From a virus, in the IMG/VR virus record IMGVR_UViG_3300017763_000123, positions 1 through 29,218 of that record: DNA of 29,218 nucleotides, one strand, 5' to 3'. Below the pieces are notes generated by a model. The model ran no database searches. It was not told the origin of the DNA and saw only the letters and a list, made by a program, of their open reading frames with translations. Numbering within the stretch: the stretch's first letter is position 1; each line of letters starts with the position of its first letter. Positions 5,684 to 19,082 of the stretch are shown here, one piece after another. Position numbers and translations under genes: made by a program.

Positions 5684-6922
5684 GTGCAAACTTTCCCCGT
5701 GAAGTCAAAGCCAAGTATATTCAGACGTATCGCAGATTCTTTCCGTGGAGGAGAGGAGCGTTCAGTATTCGTCAGCAGCAATAGTTCATTGCGACAGAAT
5801 TATGTGAGGATGTACGATGATGGATACGCTTATGGTTCTGATGCCCTTGAGGTTTCAGCAGTCTATGCGTGCGTGTCAAAAATCGCAGACACGATTGCTA
5901 GTTTGGAAGCTTCTGTCGTCCGGATTGGTAAGGATGGGTCTAGGGAAACCATTGACGCTCATCCAGTTCACAAGATAATCAGTCGCGAACCCAATGAGCA
6001 TATCAATGCTTACGAGTTCTGGCAGATGATTGTATCCGATGCCTGCCTTCATGGTACCGGTTACGCTTTTATCGACCGCTCTAGCAATGAGATGTACTAC
6101 ATCCCATCTGTTCGTATGAGTCACACCATTGACTCAAACACTGGTGAAAAGTTTTATAGTTATGACGGGGCTCCTGGTCCGGTGCCTCAGAAGGACATAC
6201 TTGAGATTAACGCATTCCGTGGTCTCAACCCGACCCATCAGCAGCTTCAGAACTTCCGCACTGCAAAGTCAGTGCAAGACTTCGGCGCCAGGTTCTTCGA
6301 CAACGGCGGAATGATGGGTGGAATCCTCTCTACTAAGGAGCACATGAGCCCGGAGCAAATTCGTCAGGCGCAGGAGATGTGGGAACGTGAGTACATGGGA
6401 AAGCACAATGCGCACAAGATTGCTATCTTGGGAGGAGGATTCCAATATCAACCTCTGTCGGTCTCTCTTGACCAGCTTCAATTCCTTCAGGTTAAGAAGT
6501 ACACGACAGAAGAGATTGCTCGTATCTACTCTGTTCCTCCGGCCATGATTGGCTTGGAAGGCAATACAGCATATAGCAACTATGAGCAGCAAGTACTTCA
6601 GTTTCAGCAGAGTACGATTCTGCCTTGGGTTCGTAGAATTGAGCAAGAAGTTGAAAGAAAACTTTTGCGTGACGACATGGAGCTTCATTGCTCATTTAAC
6701 GTCGATACCTTGCTTAGAGCAGATAGCACTTCTCGTGCTCAGTTCTATCACAACATGATTCAGGATGGAGTTATGAATATCAATGAGGTCAGGGCCAAAG
6801 AAGGCCTTGGTCCTGTTGAAGGAGGTTCTTCTCACCATATCCAACTGAACACCATCCCCCTCGACCGAATGCAGGACTATGCAGATAAGGTGACAGGTAA
6901 AGCTCCATCTCAAGATGAGTAA
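5684..6922 (+). CDS. Portal protein, HK97 family (412 aa)
   Basis: The dodecameric portal forms the channel at one capsid vertex and docks the terminase. The protein shows the family's order: an N-terminal FRRIADSFRG segment, then ALEVSAVYACVSKIADTIASL. The long central region includes HPVHKIISREPNEHINAYEFWQMIVSDACLHGTGYAFI and FFDNGGMMGGIL, and the C-terminal stem helix carries KKYTTEEIARIYSVPPAMIGL. These are hallmarks of Phage_portal proteins. No ATG precedes this segment and the next Met is at residue 43, so GTG at 5684 is the best start. Its last 8 nt overlap the next gene. Confidence 0.93.
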   Translation: MQTFPVKSKPSIFRRIADSFRGGEERSVFVSSNSSLRQNYVRMYDDGYAYGSDALEVSAVYACVSKIADTIASLEASVVRIGKDGSRETIDAHPVHKIISREPNEHINAYEFWQMIVSDACLHGTGYAFIDRSSNEMYYIPSVRMSHTIDSNTGEKFYSYDGAPGPVPQKDILEINAFRGLNPTHQQLQNFRTAKSVQDFGARFFDNGGMMGGILSTKEHMSPEQIRQAQEMWEREYMGKHNAHKIAILGGGFQYQPLSVSLDQLQFLQVKKYTTEEIARIYSVPPAMIGLEGNTAYSNYEQQVLQFQQSTILPWVRRIEQEVERKLLRDDMELHCSFNVDTLLRADSTSRAQFYHNMIQDGVMNINEVRAKEGLGPVEGGSSHHIQLNTIPLDRMQDYADKVTGKAPSQDE

Positions 6923-7532
6923 GACTTATGGAGGCTACCCCGATAGCGCGAAGGCAGCAGCTCGACGCGCTCTAAAGCATAAAGAGAAGAACGGAAGCAA
7001 GTGCGGGACCCCTGTGGGTTGGGAGAGAGCTAATCAGATTTCTTCTGGCGAAAAGCTTAGCATGTCCACCATCAAGCGGACCTTCTCTTTCCTTTCTCGT
7101 GCAGAGACTTACAATCAAGGCAAGTTCTTTAACGATGACGGAAAGGAGATTTGCGGTAGCGTGATGTACGCTGCCTGGGGTGGCACCACTATGCGTAGCT
7201 GGTGCAGTGGAGTCATCAACAAGGAAGAGGGTCGTGCTGCAATTACAGGCGCAGTAAAGAAGGGCTTGGCGAAGAAGGTTGAAGACCATAACGAATCGGT
7301 TGAAGCCTCTACTAAGAAAACTAATTTACGCACCCTTTCCGCTGTATTCAAGCGAGGCATAGGGGCGTACAAGACCAACCCGGGCTCTGTCCGGCCTAAC
7401 GTAAAGTCACCTGAGCAATGGGCGTATGCTAGGGTGAACTCGTTCCTTTACGCCCTCAAGAACGGACGCTTTCGGAGTGGCAAACACGATACAGACTTGT
7501 TTCCCAAAGGTCATCCCCTAAGCTCAAAATAA
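6915..7532 (+). CDS. Conserved two-domain phage protein between portal and protease (205 aa)
   Basis: Residues about 1-95 contain a motif I know from many phage proteins near head-maturation genes: GTPVGWERANQISSGEKLSMSTIKR then SVMYAAWGGTTMRSWC. The same elements occur as (R)VGWARANQL...LS..T(I/V)RRM and (A)WLLWGGD-G-W elsewhere. The C-terminal part (about 135-205) has FKRGIGAYKTN...SPEQWAYARVNSFLYALKNGRF...DLFPKGHP, a second recurring element. No enzyme activity is established to my knowledge; a role in head assembly is inferred from position. It overlaps the portal gene by 8 nt, which suggests stoichiometric production. Basic and Cys-containing; no membrane span. Confidence 0.7.
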   Translation: MSKTYGGYPDSAKAAARRALKHKEKNGSKCGTPVGWERANQISSGEKLSMSTIKRTFSFLSRAETYNQGKFFNDDGKEICGSVMYAAWGGTTMRSWCSGVINKEEGRAAITGAVKKGLAKKVEDHNESVEASTKKTNLRTLSAVFKRGIGAYKTNPGSVRPNVKSPEQWAYARVNSFLYALKNGRFRSGKHDTDLFPKGHPLSSK

Positions 7533-7537
7533 AATCA

Positions 7538-9481
7538 ATGGCGAAAAACGTAGAAAAGCGATTTGTTGACGCTGGTTTCGAGGTTCGTTCCGAGGATGGT
7601 GAGCCAATTACCGTAAGCGGTTACGCGGCTGTCTTTGAGGACGAGACTGTTATCGGCGGAGCATTCGCAGAGCGCGTAGCTCGCGGAGCATTTGAGGATT
7701 CTAACATGAGCAACACTGTTGCCTTGTTCAATCACGACATGAACAAGCCTTTAGCCCGAGTGGGTTACGGCTTGGAACTGACTGTGGATGAGCGTGGCTT
7801 GCGGTACAGCTTTGAGTTAGGCAATCAGAGCTACGCAAAAGACCTCGCAGAAAATATCCGTATGGGCAATGTCAGTACCAGCAGCTTTGGCTTCACAGTC
7901 GAGGATGATGACTGGGAGCGCCGCGACGATGGTATGAACTTGCGAACTATCAATAAGGTCGGACTCTTGTTCGACGTGTCACCCACAACCCAGGGGGCCT
8001 ATCCTACTACTGAAGTCGGCTTACGCTCGATGGAGATGGCTCTCAAAAACGAAGAAGTTTTGGAAATCGAAAATCAAGAAGTGCGAGTTGAACTCGACGA
8101 AGAAAATACCGTAGAGGAAGTTCGGGAGAAAATGACCGACGAGGAAGAGGAGGAAGAGACCGAAGAGGAGCGTGCTCCTGGAGTGGACTCTGACTACGAC
8201 GGAGTTAAAGACGAGGACGAAGAGGAAGAGGAAGAGCGTGAGCATGAAGATGGCCACGAAGAGGAAGAGGAAGAGGAAGAGGAAGAGGAAGAGCGCTCTG
8301 AGTCACATTGCAGTGACTGCGGATGCGAAGATGGATGTGTCAAAGATGAAAACCCTGAGCCGGAGGCTCGTAATTCTAATATCTCAAATTCTAATAACAT
8401 GAAAGAGAAAAATCCAGCCCCGGCCATCATTCAAGGCATGGGCGACACTGAGGGAAAGTTGCAAAAGCGCTATTCCTTCGGAAAGGCTATCCAGGAAGCT
8501 GCTCAAGGAAACTTGACAGGCTTGGAGGCCGAGATGAGCCAAGAGGCTCGCAATGAGTATTCTGAGGCGAAAGTAAACGTGAACGCGGGCGGTTTCTCCG
8601 TTCCTAGCATGATGCTTCGTGCTGACGAACCAATCGGTGTTGGCGCGACGTCAGATGGAGTCAATCACATTTTTGGTGGAACCATCGGTATTCAAGACAA
8701 CGGTTTCGTTTCAGCTTTCCGCCCCAACGACATCGCTACTCAGATGGGTGCTCGTACCATTGCCGGTACATCTGGAGACATCGTATTCCAGGTTCAAAAT
8801 GCTGAGGTAGACGCCTCCACGCCCGCAGAAGGTGCCGCAGCAACTCTCGACAACCCAACTTTCACAGCGGTTAAATTGCAGCCAAAGCGTTACGCTTGCT
8901 ATACTGCTGTATCTGAGCAGTTGATGGCTCAGTCTGCTCAGGACATGGGAGCATTCATTGCTGCTGATATCCGTAAGGCTATCGACGAGAAGTTCAATGT
9001 TGACGTCTTGGCTGTCATCGACGCTGCTGCTGACGGTGGTGGAACTATCACTGCTGACGGTTCTACTACTAACGCGACTGCTTTGGACGCTCTCCTCGGC
9101 TTGGAAGCTGACTTGATTGCTGCTGATGTGCCTCTCGAAAACATCAAGGCACTGTGCGGAGCTACCGCATACCGCGTGGCTCGTAAGGTGAGCATGGACG
9201 TAGGTTCGGGCATGATGATTGCCGACTCTCCTCTCGCTCGTCGCAACTTGTTGGGATACGATGCGATTGTGAACTCTAGCGTCACTGCCGCCAACATGTA
9301 CCTTGCTGATTCTCAGAATGTTGCGGTCGCAAACTGGGGTGGTTTGAACATCATGGTGGACCCATACACTTTTGCTGAGAAGGGCGTCATTCGCCTCATC
9401 ACTAATGTGTACAAGGACGTCAAGGTGTTGAACGCTACTGGCTTTGTTGGCTTGAGCAGCTTCGACTTCACTGGCTCATAA
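7538..9481 (+). CDS. Prohead protease fused to major capsid protein (647 aa)
   Basis: Residues 1-165 are an HK97-type (S78) prohead protease: SGYAAVF, a catalytic His in FNH66D, the Ser-containing VSTSS116FGF, and DVSPTTQGAYPTTEVGLRS. Residues about 170-287 form a very acidic linker with a (GAAGAG)6 tract (residues 241-252), a DSDYDG segment and four cysteines (C258, C261, C263, C267). Residues 288-647 are the HK97-fold capsid protein (SVPSMMLRADEPIG, TIAGTSGDIVFQ, a central VKLQPKRYACYTAVSEQL, a C-terminal domain near MVDPYTFAEKGVI). Fusions of protease and capsid occur in some phages; maturation would release the shell protein. The ATG at 8399 could give a separate capsid product. A strong terminator follows. 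Confidence 0.88.
   Translation: MAKNVEKRFVDAGFEVRSEDGEPITVSGYAAVFEDETVIGGAFAERVARGAFEDSNMSNTVALFNHDMNKPLARVGYGLELTVDERGLRYSFELGNQSYAKDLAENIRMGNVSTSSFGFTVEDDDWERRDDGMNLRTINKVGLLFDVSPTTQGAYPTTEVGLRSMEMALKNEEVLEIENQEVRVELDEENTVEEVREKMTDEEEEEETEEERAPGVDSDYDGVKDEDEEEEEEREHEDGHEEEEEEEEEEEERSESHCSDCGCEDGCVKDENPEPEARNSNISNSNNMKEKNPAPAIIQGMGDTEGKLQKRYSFGKAIQEAAQGNLTGLEAEMSQEARNEYSEAKVNVNAGGFSVPSMMLRADEPIGVGATSDGVNHIFGGTIGIQDNGFVSAFRPNDIATQMGARTIAGTSGDIVFQVQNAEVDASTPAEGAAATLDNPTFTAVKLQPKRYACYTAVSEQLMAQSAQDMGAFIAADIRKAIDEKFNVDVLAVIDAAADGGGTITADGSTTNATALDALLGLEADLIAADVPLENIKALCGATAYRVARKVSMDVGSGMMIADSPLARRNLLGYDAIVNSSVTAANMYLADSQNVAVANWGGLNIMVDPYTFAEKGVIRLITNVYKDVKVLNATGFVGLSSFDFTGS
8258..8293 (+). repeat. 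(GAAGAG)6 simple repeat encoding poly-Glu
   Basis: Six perfect GAAGAG units lie within the linker of the protease-capsid gene, next to looser GAGGAA runs from about 8138. Such a tract can change length by slippage in steps of two codons without breaking the frame, so linker length may vary between relatives. Confidence 0.85.
8372..8401 (+). promoter_or_regulatory. Candidate internal translation start for the capsid protein
   Basis: The in-frame ATG at 8399 (residue 288) is preceded by about 28 nt of A/T-rich sequence (AATTCTAATATCTCAAATTC and on to the ATG). This stands out from the G/A-rich surroundings and resembles true start regions at 7538, 9545 and 11382. The following codons are AAA GAG AAA. 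Initiation here would give a 360-residue capsid protein, a normal size for the family. Confidence 0.45.
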
Positions 9482-12658: not shown

Positions 12659-15141
12659 TGCTAGGAGGTCTCAACAATCTGTACAGAATGTCTCTGCTTA
12701 TTACGGCAGACATTCGAGGTTTTACAACTGGTCTTGAACGCGCTGAACGTAAGCTTCTTCGCTTTTCCGGCACCGTAAATAAGTTTGGTCAAAGCCTTAA
12801 CAGAGGTGTAGGACTAGCTTTCGGTATCGTAGGAGCGGCAGCCGTTAGCGCTGCGGCAGAGTTCGATAGAGCGAACGCCACCCTTGGTCAGATTGTTGGG
12901 AAGACCAACCTACAACCTCTTACTGATGAGGCTAAGAGGTTGGGACGTGAGACTGTCTTTCTTGCTAAAGATGCAGCGGCGGCTCAACTGGAACTTGCCA
13001 AGCTGGGCTTCCGTGCTGATGAGGTCAACAGCGTACTTGATAAGAGTACCAAGCTTGCCACTGTCTTCGGTACTGACCTTGAGGCTACGGGTAAGACTAT
13101 TGCCGCTACACTCAGGCAGTTTGGCAAGAGCCTGAGGGGTGAAGAGGGCATTGAGAATGTAGCTGAGGTTACTGATATCATGGCCGTGGCCTTCCGTGAT
13201 TCGGCTCTGGACTTAACCAAGTTCAAGGAGTCCATGAAGAACGTCGGTCCTACTGCAAGGGCCACTGGCTTAGATTTGACTCAGACCACGGCGCTTCTCG
13301 CTGTCCTTGCCAACAACGCTGTAGACGGGTCTCTTGGTGGAACGAAGCTTCGCTCAACACTCTCTGACCTTGCCAGGAAGTTTCCCGATGTAGAGGAGGG
13401 CCTTAAAAAGCTTAACGACCAGACGCTGACTTACGCGGACTTGGTGGAGCTGTTGAATAAGAGGGCCGCACTTGTTGGAGCTATCTTCCAAGACAACGGG
13501 GAGGAGATTAAGGCTTTTGAGCAGACTCTACTTAACGCTAAGGGGGCGACAGACGAGATGGCTTCTGGTTTGGAGAAGAAGCTTTTCTTCCAAGTAGAGA
13601 AACTCAAGAACGCTTTTCAGTCTATCGGTATTGAGCTAGGTGACGCATTGGCTCCTACTATTGAGTCCATGGCTGGCACCTTGTCTCGTTTTGCCGTCTC
13701 TCTTGAGCAGGTAGACGAGAGAAAGCTGTCAAACATTGTGTCAATCCTTACGGGTATTGTGGGGCTTGGTGTAGGCGCTCAGGTACTGGGCTTCTTTGGA
13801 ATCACGATGGGTCGTGTCGCTGCTGCTAGTAGGGCGATGTCGGTCGCTCTGATTAAAAACACTTCAGCTACTGCTTCGTTTGCTCGCGGCCTGGGTCCTG
13901 CTATCGCAGCAGCAACTGCCCTGGCAGGTGTAATGGGTGGCATCTTCAAGCTGCTCCTTGGTGGTGATATAGGTGGGTTCAAACTTTTAGACGTCGAAAC
14001 CTCTGAGGAGAAAGCCTTAAAGGTTGCTGAACAAAGGCTTGAGAGGATAGCTTCTATTCAAAAGCGCCTCAATGATGAACGCGAGAGACCTTCTTTCCGC
14101 AGAGAAGACCTAGAGGCCTTCACTGGAAACACGACTCTGGAGGGAATCAACAAGGACCTTGGGTTCTATCGAGACCTTCTTGCTCGGGCTCAGGAGAAGA
14201 TGACGGCCTTGGTGGATGCTGGTGCTCAAAGGGACTCTTACTTCTTAAAGATAGAGAAGGTTATCTCAGACACAGAGCTAGAGATAGCAGCTAATGAGAG
14301 GCTTGCCAAGATACTGGCAAGGGTAGCTGAGGCCTCAGAGAAAATTAAGCTCGCAAAACAAGCCGAAGAAGATGCAAAGGCTCTTGCCAAAGCTCAGAAA
14401 GAAACTAGGGCTCTTCAACAGGTCACTGATGACTTGCGGGCTTCTCAGCTTGCACTGGTGCGGGGCACCGACATTCCCGCAGTATTCGGTCAAGGCTTTA
14501 TGTTCGACCAGCTTGATGCAGCCAAGCAGCTTGTTGCTCTACTGAATGGAAAGGCTATCGTAAGTGCTCAGGAGTTTGCAAATACAATAGACCTTATTGA
14601 GCTTGATGAAGAAGACATCAACTTTGAGATGTTTCAGGACCCTATTGATGACGCCACAAAGCAAATTGATAAGCTCGCCGAAAAGCTTATCTTAATTCGT
14701 GAAGGCTTGGTTGTGGCTCGTGTTGTTGCGCTGGAGTTTGCTCAGAGTCTTGGGCAGGCGTTTATCGAAAGCAGACAGGAGGGGGTGAAGTTCTTCGATG
14801 CCTTCAAAGAATCGTTCCTTAGGGCGTTTAGAGCTGTCATTGGAAAGCTCATCACTCTTATCGCTCTATATACCATCCTTGCTGTCGTGTCTGGTGGCAC
14901 GAGTGTGGCAGCGGGAGGTACATTTGCCGGAGGGTTCCAAGCGTTCACTGGAGCCAATCCTCTTGGAGCATTCCTTGGTGAAGGATTCGGTGTAGGCACC
15001 AGGGCCTCTGCCTCAGGCATTCCACTTAGCGGTGGTCGTGACAGCATGGCTCAGGTCAACGTCCGAGGGGCTGTGTCTGGAACCAATTTAATCATCCTCA
15101 ATGAGCGCGGAGCACGCGCTGTTGACCGTACATTTGGATAA
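12658..15141 (+). CDS. Tape measure protein (827 aa)
   Basis: The tape measure sets tail length and later crosses the membranes during DNA entry. Residues about 60-270 hold the TP901-type core (RANATLGQIVGKTNLQ, LAKDAAAAQLELAKLGF, GLDLTQTTALLAVLANNAVDGSLGGTKLRSTLSDL). Hydrophobic segments follow at about 360-385 and 405-435, then a long charged coiled-coil region (about 440-600), and a C-terminal membrane-like segment (VIGKLITLIALYTILAVVSGG) with Gly/Ala-rich sequence. At roughly 1.5 angstrom per residue the tail would be about 120 nm, an estimate only. It overlaps the chaperone stop and the next start by 1 nt each. Confidence 0.93.
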   Translation: MLGGLNNLYRMSLLITADIRGFTTGLERAERKLLRFSGTVNKFGQSLNRGVGLAFGIVGAAAVSAAAEFDRANATLGQIVGKTNLQPLTDEAKRLGRETVFLAKDAAAAQLELAKLGFRADEVNSVLDKSTKLATVFGTDLEATGKTIAATLRQFGKSLRGEEGIENVAEVTDIMAVAFRDSALDLTKFKESMKNVGPTARATGLDLTQTTALLAVLANNAVDGSLGGTKLRSTLSDLARKFPDVEEGLKKLNDQTLTYADLVELLNKRAALVGAIFQDNGEEIKAFEQTLLNAKGATDEMASGLEKKLFFQVEKLKNAFQSIGIELGDALAPTIESMAGTLSRFAVSLEQVDERKLSNIVSILTGIVGLGVGAQVLGFFGITMGRVAAASRAMSVALIKNTSATASFARGLGPAIAAATALAGVMGGIFKLLLGGDIGGFKLLDVETSEEKALKVAEQRLERIASIQKRLNDERERPSFRREDLEAFTGNTTLEGINKDLGFYRDLLARAQEKMTALVDAGAQRDSYFLKIEKVISDTELEIAANERLAKILARVAEASEKIKLAKQAEEDAKALAKAQKETRALQQVTDDLRASQLALVRGTDIPAVFGQGFMFDQLDAAKQLVALLNGKAIVSAQEFANTIDLIELDEEDINFEMFQDPIDDATKQIDKLAEKLILIREGLVVARVVALEFAQSLGQAFIESRQEGVKFFDAFKESFLRAFRAVIGKLITLIALYTILAVVSGGTSVAAGGTFAGGFQAFTGANPLGAFLGEGFGVGTRASASGIPLSGGRDSMAQVNVRGAVSGTNLIILNERGARAVDRTFG

Positions 15142-18100
15142 TGGCAGTGACATACAACTTCGACACAAAGTACTACGAGCAGAAGGTTGAGGGAGCCACT
15201 GACGAGACGGGCTATCGCATAGTCATTGGTAACAAGAGTGGCGATGTAGATGCGGCCAGTACGCAACTAGAGCTAATGAGCCCAGGGATGTCTCTGAGGT
15301 GGCAAGGTGGTGATGACCTTGCTAAGAACTCAACAATGGGGGGCTCCTTGTCCTTCACCGCAGTGTTGACAGATGCGCAGCTTGCTACTTGGGAGTCTTA
15401 CATGAATCATGTGGAGGGCGATGTGTTCGCTCTATTCTTTAACACTGATAGCGCTACAGCCGAACCATATTGGTACGGCCACCTCCTTCCTGAGTCTGTT
15501 ACTATTCGAGTAGAGAACGATAGGCACCTGATGGACGTTGAGTTCACTGACGGACTATCTCAGCTCAAGTTCATAGAGTGGGTAGACGATAACGACGGGC
15601 TTCCTTACGAAGGATTTAAGACTCTGCGATACTACTTGCACGAGCTTCTAGCGAAGCTGCCTGCATATCATGCCTACAAGGACTATGTAACTAATGTGCT
15701 GGGCAACGACAGGCTTGAGATTGTACGAGCTATCGCTTGGCCAGAGCCCAACCACGACGACAACGGTACTCAGCGCCTTTACAACGACAGGGACACCAAG
15801 CTAGACAACTTCCGCGTTAGAGCGGCAACCTTCAACAAGCCTAAGAAGCAACAGAATCGTGTCAGGGAGCTAGAGTCTGCCCTTGAATACTTCAGTGCTG
15901 GCGATGTCCTGGAAGACATCTGTAAAGCTTTTGGTGCCACTGCATGCTTGTACGGTAGCTGCTTAACTGTAGCGTGTAGGCTGGATGTCGCTTGGTATGG
16001 CGGCAGCTCAGTGCTTCAGCATCAGTATTGGTATCAGCCATCTACCGCTAGTTATCCTGGCACCTCCGGTGCTGGAGCAAACTCAAACCCATTTCGTTCA
16101 TTTGGAGACCTAGCTATAGGAACTGCTGAAAACAAGTACCATGTAGCTGCGGGGGCAACGAAAACCCATACTGTGCCAGTCAGGAGAGTGGATATCACTC
16201 ACGAGGAAGGGGGTAGCGACAACCTATACGCTGACGGATTCTTCTTAAATCCGAGCATCTCGTTCATCAACTACGATAGTGCTCAAAGCCTTCAGTCTCT
16301 TGTCAACTCAGGAATGAATCCGCTTGGTGCGTTGCGCAAAGACAAGTTCTTTGACTTCCAGGCTCCTGATAATAATAGCACAGGGGTTGTCAACTTGCCG
16401 GTGTATCAATATCCCGCCAATGCTTCGGGATATCTTGGTTTCCCTTCACGGACTGAAACAGACTTAGAATATCAGAGTGGTGAAAACCTTAGGCTTACAT
16501 TTGGTGGTAGCGCCAGATTCTTTGCTCGCAATGCCTTAAACCTTTTACCTTCCAACTATTTCAAGAAGGTCCATATAGGAGCCACGTTAATTATTCGAGT
16601 GAGGCTTCAGCTTACAACAACTACTGGCACTGGTTATCGCCTAAGTAGACCCGTTAAGACGCATGCTTTGTCTGGAGGCAGCCCAGACTTTATCACTATT
16701 GATAATGTTCAGCAATACTTTGACTCCAGTACCAACGACTTCTTCAATCAAGACAAGGAGTATTTTAGGAAGCTCTACGGAGACATGGTGTGGCTCAAGG
16801 ACAATGCCTCTAACTATGAAGACGACGGATGGTTTGAGATAATCGTGCCTCACGGAGATAATGAGAACAGCGGAGAAGGGTACGGCTCGACCATAACTCC
16901 TCTGACTCAACCGTATGGGGGGCAGGTTATTTATGCACCTATTGGCACTAAGATTAAGGGCGACGATAACGGTGTAGGTGTAGTCCTTGAGGAGTCAACA
17001 GACGACGAAACGCTGCTTCAATACTTCAGGGAAGATATCAACCTGTCTCTTCCTTATGGTAATGCCGCTGGGAGCGATGTATTGGACTTTGAGACCTTCT
17101 TCTTTGAGATGGGCGCTCAAGAATATGAACCTTCGACAGGTCCTCGGGAGGCTTCAGGAGGAGGAGCTACAGGGACATGGGAAGGAGACCTGCCTCTATG
17201 GAAGAGCGCCAAAGCTGACGGCACAGCTTATGCTGGACGATACGACGGTGACGCTGGAGAGCACCTTACTAGACCAGACTACATACACTTTACTGGCATG
17301 AGGGTGACTGTAGGAGACGGAAGCGAGTCTTCGGACCTCACCACAAAGGCTACTGGCACTAATGGATATGAGATTGTAAACCTTGGCTCTTCACGGATTG
17401 GCTCACGCAAGAGATACGGGACTCAACATGTGTCTGGTGTTGTGGGAGTAAAAAAGAAAACAGGAGATGCCGAGGGTGCTTTTGCTGACCCAGTAGTTTA
17501 CATTGACACTATTCAGTGGAGGGGGCACAGGGCTGGTGACTTTGGTAGTCCAGGGTTCTTGGGAAGCTCAATCTTAACGACTGACTACGACTCTATTCAC
17601 AGGTATGTAGCCGAGTCGTATTTGAATATATTTGGTAAGTCAAGGATGGTTTACAACCTCAAGCTTATCTCAAAGGACTCTAGCATGAGGAGTCTACAGA
17701 CACCTCTATCGGTGGTGCAAACTACGGCACTAAGTGACGGGGGTAGCACGCGACTATATCTTCAGCCTCTTAGCTACAGGTGGACACTCAATGATGGTGT
17801 GCAAGGAAGCTTCCTAGTATCTAGACAGGCAAGGGACTTGAGCACAGTGACTTCTGATGAGGGCAGGCCTATTAGAGGCGGAGGAGGCATCGTAGGCATC
17901 GGAACAGGTGTAGACGGGGTGGCCCCAGCTTTAGAATCCAAGTTCGTAACGGACACCATCACTGTTGATGTTGATACTGGTGATGTCACGGGTATTGCAG
18001 TGAAGTCTGGCGCTACACTCTTTACTGCTAGTACTATAAGCGATTTCAGTACGGCAGTAGCAGCGGTAAGCGAGGTGGCGACAAACACCTTGAAAACATC

Positions 18101-19082
18101 CTTCCCTGGATTTGGGACAGGAGCCGGAACCGCATTAGAGGGCACCACCGATACCCTAGGAGACATTAGCGGGTTAGGCTCTGTCTTGCGTACTGATGGC
18201 TCTGGAACTGCGGTAGAGGGCATTAAAGAACACGCCAATCAGCTCACTCTTGTAGCCGACAGCACAATTCCAGGTCAAACTGGGTCAAAGCGGTTTACCA
18301 TCCAAGACTTCTTTACCGCCATCGTTACTTCAGGTCTTGAGGAAGCGGATAGTGGCGGGTTTGTAGATATAGCTGATTACGTTGGGGCGACCAGTGGCGT
18401 TGTTGGTGACTTCAATGATGACGGGCAAGTAGGTAGTGCAGACCTACTTCAATTCTTGATTCTTTATGGTCAGATATTTGAGGGCGACAACGGGGCATTC
18501 GCCAATTCTTATCTTCAAATACAATCAAACAGTCAGACAGTAAATTTCCCTGATACAACCGCTCGAACTCTTACATGGAGCAACTCTAACGTCCCTGCCA
18601 ACTTGGTGGTTCAGAGTGGAGTAAGCATTAACATCTTGGACGCGAGTGACGAAATAGAGTTTGTTAGTGGTGCAACTACTCAGTACCCAATTACAGCATG
18701 GACGCATAAAAGGGTTATCCTTCGCAGTGGAGGAACTCAGAGTAATCAATTAGACTTTTTGACAGTTACAGTGACATTTCCCTCTACTGCGATAAACATA
18801 GGAGTCAGCATAAAAGCTTTGAAGGCCGATGGGACGGAGGCACAGCCTGAAGCAGTAGAGTTAATGGGGGTAGTTTTTGTGGGACCAGCAAATACTGGGC
18901 GTATCATTGGTTTTAGTTCTTTAGTTGGCTTAAACAAATGGACAAGCTCAACAGACTTGTCCGACCCTTTAATTGAGAAAGTCAGAGTGTCGATATTTGC
19001 CCAGCCTGTTGATAACAGTGATGTGCTTTGCAACGTCAGCTTAAAAAATGTTCGAATAGGATTAGAATCAGTATCTTCATGA
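15141..19082 (+). CDS. Large tail protein with dockerin-like module (1313 aa)
   Basis: Position after the tape measure makes this the distal tail/hub protein or a hub-fibre fusion. The N-terminal region (about 1-170) reads as a beta domain (GYRIVIGNKSGDVDAASTQLELMS, WESYMNHVEGDVFALFF). It is followed by VLEDICKAFGATACLYGSCLTVACRL, which resembles tail-hub segments. The middle (about 250-900) is beta-rich with aromatic residues and may bind a surface receptor. Residues 1090-1101 form a dockerin-type Ca loop (D-F-N-D-D-G-Q-V-G-S-A-D) with helix DLLQFLILYG. The C-terminal about 190 residues form another beta domain. Family-level identity is uncertain; the ATGA overlap couples it to the fibre gene. 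Confidence 0.7.
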   Translation: MAVTYNFDTKYYEQKVEGATDETGYRIVIGNKSGDVDAASTQLELMSPGMSLRWQGGDDLAKNSTMGGSLSFTAVLTDAQLATWESYMNHVEGDVFALFFNTDSATAEPYWYGHLLPESVTIRVENDRHLMDVEFTDGLSQLKFIEWVDDNDGLPYEGFKTLRYYLHELLAKLPAYHAYKDYVTNVLGNDRLEIVRAIAWPEPNHDDNGTQRLYNDRDTKLDNFRVRAATFNKPKKQQNRVRELESALEYFSAGDVLEDICKAFGATACLYGSCLTVACRLDVAWYGGSSVLQHQYWYQPSTASYPGTSGAGANSNPFRSFGDLAIGTAENKYHVAAGATKTHTVPVRRVDITHEEGGSDNLYADGFFLNPSISFINYDSAQSLQSLVNSGMNPLGALRKDKFFDFQAPDNNSTGVVNLPVYQYPANASGYLGFPSRTETDLEYQSGENLRLTFGGSARFFARNALNLLPSNYFKKVHIGATLIIRVRLQLTTTTGTGYRLSRPVKTHALSGGSPDFITIDNVQQYFDSSTNDFFNQDKEYFRKLYGDMVWLKDNASNYEDDGWFEIIVPHGDNENSGEGYGSTITPLTQPYGGQVIYAPIGTKIKGDDNGVGVVLEESTDDETLLQYFREDINLSLPYGNAAGSDVLDFETFFFEMGAQEYEPSTGPREASGGGATGTWEGDLPLWKSAKADGTAYAGRYDGDAGEHLTRPDYIHFTGMRVTVGDGSESSDLTTKATGTNGYEIVNLGSSRIGSRKRYGTQHVSGVVGVKKKTGDAEGAFADPVVYIDTIQWRGHRAGDFGSPGFLGSSILTTDYDSIHRYVAESYLNIFGKSRMVYNLKLISKDSSMRSLQTPLSVVQTTALSDGGSTRLYLQPLSYRWTLNDGVQGSFLVSRQARDLSTVTSDEGRPIRGGGGIVGIGTGVDGVAPALESKFVTDTITVDVDTGDVTGIAVKSGATLFTASTISDFSTAVAAVSEVATNTLKTSFPGFGTGAGTALEGTTDTLGDISGLGSVLRTDGSGTAVEGIKEHANQLTLVADSTIPGQTGSKRFTIQDFFTAIVTSGLEEADSGGFVDIADYVGATSGVVGDFNDDGQVGSADLLQFLILYGQIFEGDNGAFANSYLQIQSNSQTVNFPDTTARTLTWSNSNVPANLVVQSGVSINILDASDEIEFVSGATTQYPITAWTHKRVILRSGGTQSNQLDFLTVTVTFPSTAINIGVSIKALKADGTEAQPEAVELMGVVFVGPANTGRIIGFSSLVGLNKWTSSTDLSDPLIEKVRVSIFAQPVDNSDVLCNVSLKNVRIGLESVSS

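Follow-up and report, generated by a model that had tools for sequence, protein, structure and literature searches.

The fused gene at positions 7538 to 9481 (+ strand) of the window, the 29,218-nucleotide stretch of marine phage DNA analyzed here, encodes an S78 protease, an acidic linker, and an HK97-fold capsid protein in 647 amino acids (70.0 kDa). Judged from its sequence, it is probably a nested head-assembly gene with two products, the 70-kDa protease-linker-capsid chain and a 37.6-kDa capsid protein initiated at an internal methionine codon of the same frame. Two products are proposed because this codon, Met288, is conserved in a start-like context, because a constrained hairpin accompanies it, and because homologous junction Mets in several other phages are preceded by Shine-Dalgarno (SD) sequences. 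Three elements are new, all of them computational: a proposed internal start that is conserved in several fused clades and has signals suited to the host, a hairpin under codon constraint, and a disordered acidic segment of changeable position that takes the place of the delta coil.

The Peptidase_S78 domain (PF04586) occupies residues 14-167 (7577..8038, + strand), where it scores 136.6 bits against a Pfam cut-off of 21 and covers profile positions 3-161 of 165. The protease part also matches NCBIfam TIGR01543 with 92.5 bits. In the alignment with relatives, its candidate active-site residues His66 and Ser115/Ser116 are invariant. Phage_capsid (PF05065) matches residues 402-639 (67 bits, cut-off 24.2), and the modeled capsid part matches HK97 prohead I (Z 16.1, 245 residues, rmsd 3.6), indicating an HK97-type fold. 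Together with the single open frame of 647 codons from 7538 to 9481, the Pfam profiles confirm that an S78 protease is joined to a capsid domain in one gene, as the preliminary description of this DNA had proposed. The fusion is not an assembly accident, since the S78 and capsid domains share one frame in dozens of related contigs from many metagenomes (L001-L013, L015, L017-L022, L045, and L082-L116, partial contigs excepted). In the isolate collection searched, no phage covered at least 80% of the fusion.

For comparison, 37 non-redundant complete relatives with 48-100% identity to the window protein were used. The same general fused plan is found in a second clade, B (L024 and its kin), in a third, pelagic clade, C (L057-L080), and in many isolates, including ep3, Arya, Alexa, Mica, Murka, MQ-4, S-CBS3, S-LBS1, CRP-811, and CRP-821. 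Separate protease and capsid genes in relatives, which the preliminary description had regarded as evidence against its reading, are present only in more distant relatives (L036-L051, part of L142-L155, and L158), while close relatives are fused. On the S78 tree, the fused clades A and B are set apart by unfused lineages, so fusion or splitting has occurred more than once. A fusion of this kind is nothing unusual among tailed phages. It has been recognized in many isolates and in Pseudomonas phage MD8, for which a single gene for protease, scaffold, and capsid is described (PMC8508860; PMC9855967). The host of the window virus may belong to the Bacteroidota, a tentative assignment suggested by its mostly SD-free starts and by a relative on one Flavobacteriales MAG contig. 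A genome scan with the fusion alignment, intended to reveal the host via a prophage, gave no matches, and a scan with the neighboring 205-aa protein returned that contig and one Burkholderiales MAG contig.

The junction between linker and capsid is marked by an in-frame Met, located 5-8 residues before the conserved (A/T)PA...Q motif at the beginning of the capsid part. This Met is invariant in 37/37 relatives, and both of its flanks are variable. In the window this is Met288, the proposed internal start ATG (8399..8401, + strand), from which translation would yield the capsid protein alone as a second product of 360 aa and 37.6 kDa (8399..9481, + strand). Its leader (8370..8398, + strand) is AT-rich and weakly structured, with A at -3 and -6. 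Among the relatives, which are not independent samples, the 30 nt before this Met average 69% A+T, and the folding energy of the surrounding 60 nt is -5.4 kcal/mol. The other Met codons in these genes, 570 in number, have 46% A+T and -13.4 kcal/mol. A is found at -3 of the junction Met in 70% of the 37 relatives (22% elsewhere) and at -6 in 54% (21% elsewhere). The Bacteroidetes do without Shine-Dalgarno sequences. In Flavobacterium, the structure of the mRNA and certain bases, among them a favorable A at -3, govern initiation (PMC6847099).

Part of this signal follows from the encoded peptide. When the junction peptide was recoded with the genes' own codon usage, the controls had 57.7% A+T, as against the 69% observed, so the junction codons lean to A/T beyond what the peptide demands. 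Folding energy at the junction, on the other hand, did not differ from that of the recoded controls. The recoded Asn/Ser-rich peptide folds as weakly, and weak folding was dropped as independent evidence for a start. When synonymous constraint was scanned in sliding windows over the full set of 37 relatives, no distinct peak appeared at the junction, and codon constraint there emerges only when the EP(T)EAR codons are considered in the 29 relatives having this peptide. By sequence signature, the window gene fits the plan of nested protease genes, with a conserved in-frame internal start and initiation signals. No paper on an internal capsid start in such fusions was found in the literature, of which subscription journals were covered in part.

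Start signals at the junction Met are also found in other fused genes. Behind the protease of clade B, 37 contigs retain the classical capsid start (MNLNDLKALR and variants) in frame, here too in a weakly structured context, with a folding energy of -4.7 vs. -15.5 kcal/mol. Ten annotated Proteobacteria phages carry protease and capsid in one gene, and their junction Met, picked by alignment and not by signal, has an SD match (at least 4 bases, spacing 4-11) in eight cases, while the other internal Mets have one in 6 cases out of 166 (Fisher p 6.5e-9, with four of the ten phages being close kin). CRP-811 and CRP-821 possess AAGGAG at this position, the best anti-SD pairing among all their internal Mets. 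MD8 and F10 possess AGGAG at spacing 9 before Met220, directly behind the protease. In clade C, 23/23 members have the junction Met, which is preceded by neither an SD match nor an excess of A+T, and the junction Mets of two cyanophages have no SD, so the rule may not hold everywhere. It is offered tentatively, as slightly less likely than not, that fused protease-capsid genes are nested and yield two products in a wide range of tailed phages. Start signals adapted to the host might then, through initiation at the junction Met, set the protease:capsid ratio. In the marine clade a stem-loop might help to set the rate, and the long product might double as a disordered polyacidic scaffold in place of the delta coil.

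The stem-loop is a small hairpin, GAGCC-GGA-GGCTC (8357..8369, + strand), that ends 29 nt upstream of the internal ATG. The GAGCC-loop-GGCTC pattern, with a loop of 3-6 nt, is present in 29/29 relatives encoding EP(T)EAR, and the remaining 8 of the 37 are without it. Of 131 conserved amino-acid columns in these 29 relatives, just 4 use a single codon, and 3 of the 4 are stem codons, namely two Glu codons and an Ala codon whose third bases lie inside the stem. The loop Pro codon and the outer Arg codon vary. Such codon-level constraint would be expected of an RNA or DNA element beside a start. No compensatory changes in the stem were seen in the relatives compared. A second GAGCC-loop-GGCTC is located at window positions 8536-8549, inside the capsid part and directly after Met333. 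The window thus contains two such motifs, compared with 0.07 expected by chance.

The principal alternative is that every subunit is made as the 70-kDa fusion, with a protease:capsid ratio of 1:1 and a linker that acts as both spacer and scaffold and is degraded in every subunit. The junction Met would then be a relic of a former capsid gene. This reading agrees with the description of MD8-type genes as protease, scaffold, and capsid in a single gene (PMC8508860; PMC9855967), and a rough volume estimate, with the interior of a T=7 procapsid 37-66% filled, indicates that it is not impossible. A relic Met should drift, yet this one persists in 37/37 relatives together with a start-like context and a codon-constrained stem upstream, and the SD sites are specific to junction Mets (8/10 vs. 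6/166). In addition, the T4 head has only about 55 protease copies (PMC9958956). On balance, a single polyprotein seems unlikely. The earlier statement that protease and capsid form one polypeptide is correct with regard to the open frame but probably incomplete, since the conserved internal start predicts a second, shorter capsid product.

It is considerably less probable that the hairpin and the AT-rich block represent a recombination joint or an mRNA-processing site instead of a start, with capsid modules being swapped at this point. The hairpin and the pre-ATG block are near-identical in DNA while linker and capsid diverge, and L012 combines a protease segment of 87% identity with a capsid of 49% (94 and 84% in L015). 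A joint, however, needs neither an in-frame ATG in 37/37 relatives nor SD sites in unrelated phages, and the L009-like relatives have kept the stem despite an extra codon inserted in the loop.

The acidic linker comprises residues 168-287 (8039..8398, + strand). Its 120 residues include 46 Glu and 11 Asp, or 57 acidic residues in all, with only 4 Lys and 6 Arg. Its most acidic 100-aa segment carries a net charge of -46. Nowhere else in the 29-kb record does a segment of this length go beyond -16, which places the linker far outside chance for this genome. A poly-Glu tract is encoded by a GAA/GAG hexamer repeat (8208..8293, + strand) whose length varies among relatives, as expected from replication slippage. 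The DSDYDG at residue 217 within the DSDYDGVKDEDE motif (residues 217-228; 8186..8221, + strand) and the CxxCxCxxxC cluster of C258, C261, C263, and C267 (8309..8338, + strand) are located where the preliminary description had placed them. In 35/37 relatives the linker is 83-149 aa long with 29-53% Asp/Glu. The net charge per residue is -0.21 to -0.46 in the long-linker members, in contrast to -0.04 to -0.17 in clades B and C, and a strongly acidic linker is special to the clade of the window. L091/L092, in which the internal Met is likewise retained, have a linker of only 23 aa that is not acidic. Instead, these two have an acidic stretch between the 205-aa-type domain and the protease. This arrangement indicates that a long protease-capsid linker is not required and that the acidic segment tracks the protease-bearing chain and not the capsid chain from Met288.

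The structural prediction for which the preliminary description had called suggests that the linker is largely disordered. In the AlphaFold2 model, the folded protease is followed by a helix at residues 159-187, predicted disorder at 188-300 (pLDDT ~30), helices at 301-343, and then the capsid fold. Its alignment with HK97 prohead I begins at residue 309 of the fused protein, equivalent to HK97 residue 76. The coiled-coil towers of HK97, which serve as a scaffold and hold the portal, are built from residues 2-66 (PMC10275583). The distance from Met288 to the conserved RYSFGK motif is 22 residues, compared with about 90 in unfused relatives and clade B, in which the coiled coil is included. The window capsid thus lacks an HK97-type delta domain, which would be a coiled coil of some 65-90 residues at the N-terminus of the capsid chain. 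The suggestion that the linker substitutes for the delta domain as a built-in scaffold gains from the missing coil and the retained acidity, which fit a scaffold role without proving it. Supplied by the few long chains, the linker may serve as a disordered scaffold that repels by its charge, or as a filler of the interior.

There is hardly any likelihood that the linker is instead a metal-binding element, with a calcium-loop-like DSDYDG and a zinc-type Cys cluster regulating the protease or cross-linking the shell: on inspection, DxDxDG is spaced like a calcium loop and a metal might be bound by CxxCxCxxxC, but the DSDYDG-type motif occurs in only 10/37 relatives, linker Cys are absent in 20/37 and at varying places in the rest, the region is predicted to be disordered, and no thrombospondin type-3 calcium repeat or other metal domain matched the segment in Pfam at E up to 10. 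Because neither the cysteines nor DSDYDG are conserved, zinc binding or cross-linking by the cysteines, as suggested in the preliminary description, and metal binding by DSDYDG were rejected as core functions.

The sequences themselves show the fusion, a conserved Met in a start-like context, a hairpin under constraint, the absence of the delta coil, and an acidity that has been maintained. That both products are made, their ratio, the scaffold role, and the cleavage sites are inferred. Translation from 7538 would yield the 70-kDa protease-acidic linker-capsid chain, and translation from the internal ATG at 8399 the 37.6-kDa capsid chain. The long chain would be scarce and the short chain abundant, so that the shell would consist mostly of the latter. 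A minority of long chains would co-assemble via their capsid domain and carry a limited number of proteases into the procapsid, with the linker on the inner face as a scaffold-like filler replacing the HK97 delta coiled coil. After assembly, the protease would remove the linker, itself, and a short N-terminal extension, leaving a mature subunit of about 300 aa, whose processed N-terminus is predicted near residue 346 by analogy with HK97, and removal of the cleavage products would empty the interior for DNA. Fused genes pose a puzzle of stoichiometry, as a head needs hundreds of capsid subunits and just tens of proteases. A conserved internal start is a simple, testable answer that would extend to many phages annotated solely as having a "major capsid protein." In addition, the window linker may exemplify how a disordered acidic segment can take over the task of a folded scaffold.

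Directly upstream of the fused gene lies a conserved 205-aa protein (6915..7532, + strand), predicted to be all-helical and with a DUF5824-like C-terminal part. Its relatives are fused to the protease in 23 loci and to the protease-capsid in 35 loci. The 205-aa-type domain is joined to S78 in L158, L142, L148, and L150, to S78-capsid in L024, L057-L080, and L091, and to the capsid gene in CRP-811/821. Based on these fusions, it is probably a head-assembly partner and not an unrelated gene. Its predicted structure had no credible match in the PDB, and the viral protein models that it did match include those of XkdF-like and prohead-protease proteins. On the Flavobacteriales MAG contig (L158, 1185-3751), the 205-aa-type domain is fused to the protease, a separate capsid gene overlaps the protease stop, and the junction of the 205-aa-type domain with the protease likewise retains a Met (KRNAMSDIE). 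In L059, L062, and CRP-811 (L157), whose capsid genes are of the clade C type, the 205-aa-type domain and the protease are separated by an additional domain, KVGDFVSWNSSGGRARGKIDRI. This additional domain resembles the hypervirulence-associated TUDOR domain. Elsewhere in the window, at 15141-19082, a 1313-aa tail-region protein without a Pfam match contains GDFNDDGQVGSADLLQFL, by its look a dockerin-type calcium-loop repeat.

Several known systems share parts of this arrangement. The Pseudomonas phages MD8 and F10 likewise possess protease, intervening region, and capsid in one gene, and their authors treat protease-scaffold-capsid as one gene, with no internal start discussed in the accessible part of that paper (PMC8508860). 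Unlike the window gene, theirs encodes a ClpP-like protease and not an S78 protease, and it has no acidic tract. The roseophages CRP-811 and CRP-821 also have a single gene, with a 205-aa-type domain, a protease-like middle, and a capsid part, and the junction Met bears AAGGAG. They differ from the window gene in their annotation, which names nothing but a major capsid protein, in the fusion of the 205-aa-type domain as well, and in the lack of an acidic tract. In HK97 (gp4/gp5), an S78 family protease and an HK97-fold capsid protein adjoin behind the portal, as in the window, and scaffold function is tied to the capsid N-terminus. HK97, however, has two genes and a delta coiled coil (residues 2-66), in place of which the window has a disordered acidic linker and a covalently attached protease. 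Precedents for the nested plan are lambda C/Nu3, the Mu protease/scaffold pair, and herpesvirus UL26/UL26.5, in which an in-frame internal start gives a shorter assembly protein from the 3' part of the protease gene. Their short product is a scaffold, while that of the window would be the capsid protein. With regard to acidity, some core proteins of T4 are strongly acidic. The T4 interior core proteins gp22, gp67, and gp68 are degraded by the head protease gp21 before packaging (PMC9958956), but they are separate proteins, whereas the acidic segment of the window is a linker inside a capsid precursor.
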